DNA of 64,000 bases from Polaribacter litorisediminis. GTDB lineage: Bacteria > Bacteroidota > Bacteroidia > Flavobacteriales > Flavobacteriaceae. Made by a program: the position numbers and the translations under genes. Every line of letters starts with the position of its first letter. Positions within the stretch are counted from its first letter, which is position 1. This document shows positions 13,256-16,026 of this stretch, piece by piece. The notes under the pieces were generated by a model. That model saw only the letters and a list, made by a program, of their open reading frames with translations, did no database searches and was not told where the DNA came from. Location: NCBI RefSeq assembly GCF_019968605.1, contig NZ_CP082966.1, positions 2,841,501 through 2,905,500 on the forward strand, in the 5' to 3' direction.

Positions 13256-13852
13256 TTACTCTTTTTCAGCCATTTTCTTCACATAATCAGTAATAATTAC
13301 AATCTGTGTGGGCCCTACTTTACCCTCAATATATTTTGCATTTTCATGATCTAAGGAAATTCTTCTTACCGTAGTACCTTGTTTTGCAACCAAACTAGAA
13401 CCTTTTACTTTTAAATCTTTTACTAAAACAACAGCATCTCCAGCTTGTAAAATAACACCATTGGCATCTCTGTGAATTATCTTTTCACTTTCATCTAAAT
13501 GATCTCCAGATTCTTTTGCAAAACGCAAATCATCGTCTTCCAAATACATCATGTCCAACAAATCTTTTGGCCAGCCTTCATTTCTTAAACGCGATAGCAT
13601 TCTCCAAGCCACAACTTTTACAGCTCTGTGCTCACTCCACATCGAGTCGTTTAAACAACGCCAATGATTTGCATCCATTTCTTCCGGGTTATCCATTTGA
13701 GAACTACAAGTTTGGCAAGTTAACAAACTTCCATCAACGCCACCTCCGCCTGTAATCGTTGGTTTTACATCGTAAATTGATAAACTATCTTTTGATGCAC
13801 ACAATTCGCATTGATTGCCACTTCTATTTTCTAAATCTTGTTGTAAACTCAT
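13256..13852 (-). CDS. PhnA (YjdM) domain protein
   Basis: A 198-residue protein. Start set at ATG 13850-13852, giving MSLQQDLENRSGNQCELC; the frame extends upstream without homologous-looking sequence. The N-terminus has a zinc-ribbon pattern with CELC (about 15-18) and CQTC, and the C-terminus has the PhnA SH3-like domain (DANGVILQAGDAVVLVKDLKVKG). The name comes from the E. coli phosphonate operon, but the family is not required for phosphonate use and its role is unclear. No phosphonate genes are nearby. Confidence 0.87.
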   Translation of the reverse strand: MSLQQDLENRSGNQCELCASKDSLSIYDVKPTITGGGGVDGSLLTCQTCSSQMDNPEEMDANHWRCLNDSMWSEHRAVKVVAWRMLSRLRNEGWPKDLLDMMYLEDDDLRFAKESGDHLDESEKIIHRDANGVILQAGDAVVLVKDLKVKGSSLVAKQGTTVRRISLDHENAKYIEGKVGPTQIVIITDYVKKMAEKE

Positions 13853-14014: not shown

Positions 14015-14401
14015 TGTCATTCCCTTGAAAAAGGGAATCCATACTAATCTATTAAAAGATTATCATACCAATCTTTAGCTAAATCCCTCCAACCGATATT
14101 CTCTTTTTCTATCAACTCAATTTTCCAACTTCTGTTCCATTTTTTTAGTCTTTTTTCTCTTTCAATTGCCTCTTCAATATTTTGAAAAGTTTCAAAATAG
14201 ACCAGTCTATTTACTCCGTATTTAAAGGTAAAACCTTTTTTAATTCCCATTTTATGCTCATAAACTCTTCTTTGCAAATCATTTGTTACACCAATGTATA
14301 GAGTACCTCTTATTTTACTTGCCAATAAATAAACATAATATTGATGAATGGTTTTCATTTTTATTTTTTAAGTATGGATTCCCACTTTCGTGGGAATGAC
14401 A
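14015..14401 (-). mobile_element. GIY-YIG cassette bounded by inverted hairpin repeats
   Basis: Two inverted 31-nt repeats, 14015-14045 and 14371-14401, enclose the nuclease gene almost exactly: one overlaps the stop codon by two bases, the other begins 12 nt before the start codon. Each is an 8-bp hairpin of form ATTCCCnn-GAAA-nnGGGAAT. The copies differ at four positions, all in the two inner base pairs of the stem, and every change keeps pairing (TT/AA in one, AC/GT in the other). The ATTCCC-N8-GGGAAT pattern equals the dRS3 repeat consensus I recall from Neisseria. The arrangement suggests a small mobile unit. Confidence 0.7.
14044..14358 (-). CDS. GIY-YIG nuclease family protein
   Basis: A 104-residue stand-alone GIY-YIG domain, as in the UvrC N-terminus and homing enzymes. 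The opening YYVYLLASKIRGTLYIGVTND carries the paired signature (here VYL and YIG about 10 residues apart), then the catalytic arginine region LQRRVYEHK and a later glutamate in the FQNIEEAIEREKRLKKW segment. Such short proteins are common in multiple copies in Bacteroidota genomes; substrate unknown. It is packed tightly between two inverted hairpin repeats, which suggests that the enzyme acts on these repeats. Confidence 0.92.
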   Translation of the reverse strand: MKTIHQYYVYLLASKIRGTLYIGVTNDLQRRVYEHKMGIKKGFTFKYGVNRLVYFETFQNIEEAIEREKRLKKWNRSWKIELIEKENIGWRDLAKDWYDNLLID

Positions 14402-14406
14402 GACGA

Positions 14407-16026
14407 CTATATTTCCAAAGAAGTAAACTGAAACGTATTCCCATCAAACAAACCTTTATCAGATAATTTTAAAGACGGAATCACCAACAACGCCATAAAC
14501 GACAAACTCATATAAGGTGCTCGTAATTTACTTCCCATTTCTTTTGCCATTTTATCCAGTTTTGCATAAGATTTTCCAATTTCTTGAGCCGATTTATCAG
14601 ACATAATACCAGCAACGGGCAAAGGAAGAATTTTTTCTTCGGATGCATTTACCGCACAAACTCCGCCTCTATTTTCAATGACTAGATTTACCGCCTTACA
14701 AATCATTTTATCAGAAACCCCAACAGCAATAATATTATGAGAATCGTGCCCCACAGAACTTGCAATAGCGCCTTCTTTCAATCCGATATTTTTGATAAAT
14801 GCGATTGCGGGCTTATCATTCTTATAACGATTTACAACTGTCATTTTTAAAATATCAGTTTTTGTGTTTGAAACTAAATTTCCATCTTCAATTAATGCAT
14901 CAGCTTCAATTTGGTTTGTGACTAATTCGCCGTCTAAAGCTTCAATTACACTTATTTTTTTAGAAGAAGACTCGAATTTAAAATCAGACACTTTCTTTGT
15001 ATCCGTATTAAAATTATTGAGCACTTCAAAATTGACGTCCTGTATAAAACTTTTTCCGTTTTTGGCAACCAATTCGCCGTTTATATAAGTTTCTAAAACA
15101 GTAAAATTCTTTAAATTATCCACCATAATAAAATCAGCAAAATCTCCTTTTTGCAGCAAACCAACCTCTAAATTATAATGTTTTACAGGATTTACGCAAG
15201 CTGCTTGTAGTACTTTAAAAACATCAATTCCTTTGGCAACTGCTCTTTCACATAATCGATTGATATGACCTAACAACAAATCATCAGGATGTTTATCGTC
15301 TGAACAAAACATCATATTTTCGAAATGCTCTGGCAACAAATCAATCAAGGCTTCAAAGTTTTTGGCAGCAGAACCCTCTCTAATAATCACTTTCATTCGT
15401 TTTACCAATTTCTCTTTGGCTTCTTCAAAAGAAAAACATTCGTGATCTGTAGAAATTCCCGCTGCAATATATTTTGTAGCATCTTCTCCTCTTAATCCTG
15501 GAGCATGGCCATCTATAGGCTTGTTATTGTTTTTGGCGTGTTGAATTTTTTGAAGCACCTCTTCATCATCAAACAAAACACCAGGATAATTCATCATTTC
15601 TGCCAAATATTTAATATCCGGATTTTCCATCATCAATTTAATATCATCAGCATCAATAATAGCGCCAGCACTTTCAAAAGAAGTTGCAGGAACACAAGAG
15701 GGTGCTCCAAAATTGAATTTTAACGGAACTTTCTTTCCGTTTTCAATCATAAAATCAACTCCTTTTACACCTAAAACATTGGCAATTTCGTGCGGATCAG
15801 AAACCGTAGCAACTGTTCCGTGTATTACTGCAATTTTTGCAAACTCAGAAGGCACTAACATCGAACTTTCTATATGAATATGTGCATCAACAAAACCAGG
15901 AAGAATATAATTTTCTATAGTGTGATTGCACTTTCTAATCGCCACAATTCGTTTCTTTTCAACTTCAATTTCTCCCTTAAAAATGATGTTATTTACTACA
16001 TCTACAATGTTCCCTTGTACAATCAT
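14407..16026 (-). CDS. ade: Adenine deaminase
   Basis: A 539-residue amidohydrolase-fold enzyme that deaminates adenine to hypoxanthine, feeding purine salvage (an Hpt domain is encoded at 4441). The metal-binding motif DAHIHIESS is at 47-55, followed by the adenine-deaminase-specific [11 protein letters not shown]. Later segments include [24 protein letters not shown] and the C-terminal [10 protein letters not shown] and GGVCAV motifs. The length fits the ADE family (about 540-600). The gene is divergent from the next large gene and starts at ATG 16024-16026. Confidence 0.95.

Follow-up and report, generated by a model that had tools for sequence, protein, structure and literature searches.

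REPs are common in intergenic spacers, and CGTC-tagged REPs, as a paper of 2013 describes them, have a CGTC or TGTC tag, a stem of 8-9 bp starting with AT, a loop of 4-5 nt and a tail that is mostly CCA, with head-to-head dimers predominating (PMC3733652). They occur in Bacteroidetes, among others, and the carriers named there include S. meliloti, A. lipoferum, N. aromaticivorans and Neisseria; the CGTC-1 family takes in Neisseria dRS3 and Rickettsia RPE-6 (PMC3733652). RAYTs, which are HUH tyrosine transposases, are tied to GTAG REPs, whereas the CGTC REPs are described as having no dedicated transposase and no association with transposase genes, and the paper ends on the open question of what mobilises them, dRS3 included (PMC3733652). 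Here, we describe a 387-bp block in the window (the whole 64,000-nucleotide stretch of Polaribacter litorisediminis DNA that was analysed), in which two such hairpins enclose the gene of a small GIY-YIG nuclease. We put at about 0.62 the probability that the block is a mobile-type unit, composed of the GIY-YIG gene and two inverted CGTC-tagged REP hairpins as its ends.

The whole unit spans positions 14015..14401 (- strand) from tag to tag, and consists of a hairpin, the GIY-YIG gene and an inverted hairpin. The distal tagged hairpin (14015..14045, 31 nt, + strand) is composed of TGTC (14015-14018), an 8-bp stem of ATTCCCTT and AAGGGAAT (14019-14026 with 14031-14038), the loop GAAA (14027-14030) and then CCATACT, beginning with the tail CCA (14039-14041). 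In the proximal tagged hairpin (14371..14401, 31 nt, - strand, read from 14401 to 14371), the tag TGTC (14401-14398) is followed by ATTCCCAC and GTGGGAAT (14397-14390 with 14385-14378), which enclose the loop GAAA (14389-14386), and again by CCATACT, with the tail CCA at 14377-14375. In a scripted comparison the two differ solely at positions 11, 12, 17 and 18, which make up the inner two pairs of the stem (A-T and C-G in one copy, T-A and T-A in the other), so that two base pairs are exchanged and the pairing is kept; the sequence-only reading of this DNA, which had described 31-nt inverted flanks with four differences confined to these pairs and a constant GAAA loop, was correct on this point. 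The gene between them (14044..14358, - strand, ATG to TAG, 104 aa; PF01541, 66.6 bits) fits tightly, as that reading had also noted: the distal repeat reaches into the stop codon, covering two of its three bases, and 12 nt separate the end of the proximal repeat from the ATG. The cassette directly follows ade, the adenine deaminase gene (14407..16026, - strand), with 5 bp between the ade stop codon and the proximal tag, and ade serves as the anchor for the empty-site comparison. On the other side lies a YjdM/PhnA-like zinc-ribbon gene (13256..13852, - strand; start codon set from relatives), which is the next gene past ade in 15 of 30 ade loci of relatives. The two hairpins fit the CGTC-tagged REP design of the Neisseria dRS3 type, each having an unpaired TGTC tag, an 8-bp stem starting with A and T, a 4-nt loop and a short unpaired CCA tail. 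The sequence-only reading had been right to draw the likeness to dRS3: PMC3733652 equates the Neisseria CGTC-1 repeats with dRS3.

Dispersed copies, a further mark of CGTC-1 REPs, are found in the 4.34-Mb genome of the window: ATTCCC-N8-GGGAAT occurs in 20 places, compared with 2 for a reversed control pattern, and the tagged hairpin form in 25 copies at up to three mismatches, compared with 0 for the control. Chance hairpins are ruled out by these genome counts and by the flank-pair and strict-test controls given below. The window pair alone among the 25 hairpins consists of opposite-strand copies within 5 kb of each other. Besides this pair, five hairpins are isolated, and the other 18 are embedded in a dispersed repeat that is longer, at about 190 bp, so that those 18 spread with something longer; most of the genome's hairpins are thus no simple kin of the cassette, a naive count misleads, and we count the 18 against a mobile unit. 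The tail of most of the other hairpins is TCT, compared with CCA in the window pair, and 23 of the 25 lie away from the nuclease gene; in RAYT/REP systems, REP elements likewise outnumber enzyme genes. The repeat of about 190 bp (L016-L035, 18 loci), with a single tagged hairpin midway along it, might itself be mobile as an independent repeat. None of the genome's remaining short GIY-YIG genes has the window-type hairpin, but those at 612.9 kb and 3539.1 kb sit in arrays of another TGTC-tagged repeat, for which 71 genome matches to TGTCASTTCGAGTG were found (control 0). Long arrays of this second repeat were also seen at 2209-2222 kb and 2490-2492 kb.

The sequence-only reading had proposed selection on the fold from the two window hairpins, and a larger set bears this out. 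A search pattern in which the three inner stem pairs were left free has matches in 20 of 59 genomes, compared with 0 for its reversed control; the 23 genomes that belong to other genera have none. From the 150 hairpin matches listed, of more than 150 in total, 58 distinct hairpin cores were obtained, in which 139 of 174 inner pairs are Watson-Crick, compared with a shuffle mean of 87.3 and with 0 of 20000 shuffles reaching 139; the inner stem pairs therefore covary. All three inner pairs form, with G-U allowed, in 127 of the 150 listed hairpins.

The protein encoded between the hairpins has PF01541 as its sole profile match at E 0.001, and its conserved residues are Y21, G23, R31, H35, E68 and N87, with the catalytic positions invariant across 16 aligned relatives. 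AlphaFold2 predicts a confident single-domain fold (mean pLDDT 92.2), the nearest solved folds being the UPF0213 protein BH0048 (1zg2) and then Slx1, a branched-DNA nuclease, with E<0.001 for 1zg2 only. With an N. gonorrhoeae ORF (L171), which sits among dRS3-type hairpins and may be the published Neisseria Ssn nuclease, the protein shares 54% identity. Chenal and others are said to have described in 2025, in Nature Communications, GIY-YIG nucleases of this kind that cut single-stranded DNA at Neisseria repeats and affect transformation; that paper reportedly already connects these nucleases with dRS3-type repeats, and the link between nuclease and hairpin is thus not wholly new. The window enzyme probably belongs to this Ssn family of single-strand nucleases. 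It is small, consists of one GIY-YIG domain and keeps its catalytic residues intact, and the closeness of gene and target repeats that the family is said to show is seen in the window and, by the strict test defined below, in 38 of 79 named loci. Other candidates were rejected, namely a group I intron GIY-YIG homing endonuclease (TIGR01453, 22.4 bits against a cut-off of 56.05), an anti-phage defence gene (0 PADLOC families match) and a phage gene (the phage collection contained no match).

The association of gene and hairpins was followed across relatives with a flank-pair test, which scores inverted flanks with a local score of at least 28 and uses shifted positions as controls, and with a strict test, which counts outward-tagged hairpins on both sides of the gene. 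The genus/order set was composed of 30 + 40 loci from the matches listed, with weaker matches left out, and of L007-L009, giving 73 loci, of which 71 were usable (L009 and L117 dropped); in the named-genome set, 79 of 80 loci were usable (L197 dropped). Inverted flank pairs are present in 43 of 71 genus/order loci (shifted positions, 3/275) and in 58 of the 79 loci that encode relatives in named genomes (shifted controls, 6/439); related GIY-YIG genes thus have inverted hairpin pairs too, spaced much as in the window, which supports the sequence-only reading. The strict test gives 38/79 for the named loci compared with 2/442 for controls, with inward-facing pairs in 8/79, and 13/71 for the genus/order loci compared with 1/275; many genus/order GIY-YIG genes lie in other repeat families, and the small number of strict pairs in the genus weighs against a mobile unit. 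So do two loci that have no flank pair, one in Rhizobium (L173) and one in Photobacterium (L179), and the flanks from different loci, which reach a score of at least 28 in 213 of 1955 cases because one REP design is common to the loci. Going by the record titles, of which many are those of metagenome bins, loci scoring at least 28 come from Bacteroidota, Proteobacteria, Patescibacteria, Armatimonadota, Chloroflexi, Nitrospirae, Acidobacteria and Coriobacteriales. In a plasmid collection the protein occurs in 33 records, and an inverted pair scoring at least 36 was found in 12 of the 14 examined, a count made without a control set; several of these loci belong to species or genera that PMC3733652 names as CGTC carriers. 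Other small GIY-YIG genes (L067, L121, L129 and L137) were seen between duplicated tRNA-like sequences, and these are perhaps cassettes that use tRNA genes.

It could be argued that such an arrangement arises by passive hitch-hiking, in which a small gene is trapped by chance between two of the REPs that accumulate in spacers. REPs are indeed common in spacers (PMC3733652), and the 23 hairpins that are not next to the nuclease gene agree with such a process, but across many phyla the pairs are matched, inverted, outward-facing and close to the start and stop codons, and matches are much rarer between flanks drawn from separate loci than between those of one locus (213/1955 versus 58/79). Hitch-hiking is disfavoured by the flank-pair and strict-test controls, and we consider it very improbable. 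The pattern that the sequence-only reading had itself named as unfavourable, that is, hairpins mostly without such genes together with other GIY-YIG genes lacking the pair, is present in its first half (23/25) and not in its second.

The ends of the unit can be placed by comparing cassettes with each other, although pairs that share loci are not independent. In these comparisons the tag marks the limit of homology at 75 of 104 left ends and 48 of 86 right ends, whereas the same test further out gives 1/416 and 3/324, respectively; 45 pairs extend beyond the gene on both sides, and 18 of these have both ends at tags. The earlier delimitation of the unit from tag to tag is thereby upheld, and its length is 345-421 bp in 21 measured loci. 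Short target duplications are absent from 20 of 21 cassettes (0 or 2 matching bases), with a 5-base match in the remaining one, so that insertion leaves no signature, a further point against a mobile unit. Genome G015 has two copies, 84% identical and 1.5 kb apart, whose homology ends no more than 10 bp from the tags and whose flanks are unrelated, and in S. meliloti Ak57 a full cassette lies beside an internally deleted copy that keeps both hairpin ends (L169, 2659-2819). The latter record is labelled pSymB, yet is 3.7 Mb long.

Tag-ended homology could also reflect selection on gene and hairpins while neutral flanks decay, as expected if the protein were a non-mobile, site-specific single-strand nuclease for DNA uptake or genome upkeep, with the hairpins as its conserved targets and with transfer by ordinary recombination or transformation. 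The identity of 54% to an N. gonorrhoeae ORF among dRS3-type hairpins and the single-strand cutting and transformation effect reported for Ssn are in keeping with this explanation. It is, however, difficult to reconcile with the two copies in G015, which share a genome and have unrelated flanks, with the deleted copy in Ak57, which retains both ends, and with the presence of the block at different places in related species, even between two genes of one operon, and we regard it as unlikely.

Presence and absence of the cassette were compared at defined sites. The nuclease gene is within reach in 4 of 30 ade loci of relatives (G000, G009, G029 and G026), and it also adjoins ade in G031. At the 15 loci where both ade and yjdM are readable, the cassette is present in 2 and absent from 13, the shortest empty ade-yjdM spacers being 63, 84, 85 and 113 bp. 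The window insertion is common to G009, another species, at the identical place and is therefore probably old; it looks like an old, vertically kept insertion; this, too, is counted against the mobile unit. The same subfamily (86% identical protein) occurs at another place in G021 and a second time in G029, these two copies occupying one shared site. In Azospirillum lipoferum, a GIY-YIG gene with a hairpin dimer on each side lies between sufB and sufC, and 11 other Azospirillum records match both sides, are 490-590 bp shorter between them and have no cassette. Among the matches listed, the cassette is present in 7 Sphingobium records and absent from 4, and in the matches listed for the Rhizobium CIAT894 cassette no empty site was found. 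Relatives thus lack the block, as seen at the 13 ade-yjdM loci and in the 11 Azospirillum records, but the empty sites of the sister species are not base-clean, because their spacers have diverged.

Some of the cassette-free sites bear on homing into existing hairpins, in which a palindromic hairpin would be cut and the cassette copied in by break repair, turning one hairpin into two. A single hairpin tagged at both ends is found at the site in two of the three cassette-free Sphingobium records examined in sequence, TomTYG64 and TomTYG74, and in the cassette-free Sinorhizobium C101 at the place where S. meliloti Ak57 has cassettes. These single hairpins (loci L183, L268 and L269) may be uncut targets or deletion scars, and deletion between the two hairpins, which are partly direct repeats too, would leave the same scar. 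No hairpin tagged at both ends is present at the empty site of Sphingobium TomTYG72 or in the four of the 11 Azospirillum empty sites that were examined in sequence. Such hairpins are rare, with one each in 3 of 59 genomes and none in the genome of the window; as a general target they were rejected on this count, and homing by this route appears improbable.

The last 20-45 bp of ade were seen by eye to be copied in series downstream of the gene in G009 (L072), G026 (L082) and G029 (L080), where the copies precede REP dimers and the GIY-YIG cassette, and even stand between repeats of different families. These serial copies may be long target duplications or the outcome of in-register tandem copying. 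At the window cassette no duplicated ade tail was found, 1060 of 5000 shuffles scoring as high.

Taken together, tag-to-tag homology, the association of gene and hairpins and their presence and absence at defined sites indicate that a unit running from tag to tag has been moved or copied, and a mobile-type unit is thus our preferred reading. The nuclease-hairpin unit that had been proposed to move with its own sites gains from the hairpin pairs at relatives, the tag-to-tag ends and the lack of the block in relatives, and loses in that the window insertion itself is probably old. The hairpins are most likely the recognition sites of the nuclease, which would bind and cut them, and we infer that it is this cutting that drives movement of the unit. 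In the proposed model, a strand is exposed at a replication fork or during DNA uptake and each hairpin folds, the bare GIY-YIG domain would nick the hairpin base beside the TGTC tag, and host repair would then copy or splice the cassette, or a hairpin pair without the gene, into another place with no short target duplication left behind. On a broader and more tentative reading, which we hold to be possible but somewhat short of an even chance, CGTC REPs in general, a large superfamily, would derive from a very widespread mobile element, as its ends and as reduced descendants of it, and the enzyme of this element would be a single-strand hairpin nuclease made of the GIY-YIG domain alone.

These data suggest that a tiny nuclease gene and its hairpins form one small mobile unit, and they offer an enzyme for a REP family that had been described without one. 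For the question of CGTC REP mobilisation on which PMC3733652 closes, a candidate enzyme, exact unit ends and sites of presence and absence are now given. Should the nuclease prove to be the mover, GIY-YIG enzymes would stand beside the HUH transposases as enzymes that generate REP-type repeats, and if the broader reading is true, a REP-type transposition system has been built on the GIY-YIG enzyme class. If the nuclease is no mover, the pairing still predicts likely target sites of many single-strand nucleases from the flanking sequence alone. To our knowledge, GIY-YIG enzymes have been known only as endonucleases, and no paper linking GIY-YIG genes to REPs was seen among those listed in our literature searches.

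Among known systems, the Ssn family shares with the window a small single-domain GIY-YIG protein beside dRS3-type repeats, with 54% identity to the Neisseria ORF; the Ssn work reportedly concerns cutting and transformation, whereas mobility of a tag-to-tag unit is the addition made here. Group I intron homing endonucleases and UPF0213 proteins share the catalytic domain, and UPF0213 BH0048 is the nearest solved relative, but the window gene has neither the intron nor the extra DNA-binding domain of the homing endonucleases. RAYT/REP systems (REPtrons and REPINs) are alike in having an enzyme gene between inverted REPs, further REPs dispersed away from the gene, REPIN-like dimers and no short target duplication; they differ in that an HUH tyrosine transposase acts with GTAG REPs, whereas the window combines a GIY-YIG protein, PF01541 being its only match at E 0.001, with a CGTC/TGTC tag. 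The CGTC-1 REPs share the YGTC tag, the 8-bp stem from AT, the 4-nt loop, the CCA tail and the inverted dimers, and are found in Bacteroidetes and Neisseria; the paper that describes them reports that they are not associated with transposase genes and nowhere uses the term GIY-YIG (PMC3733652), whereas the window pair encloses a GIY-YIG gene.
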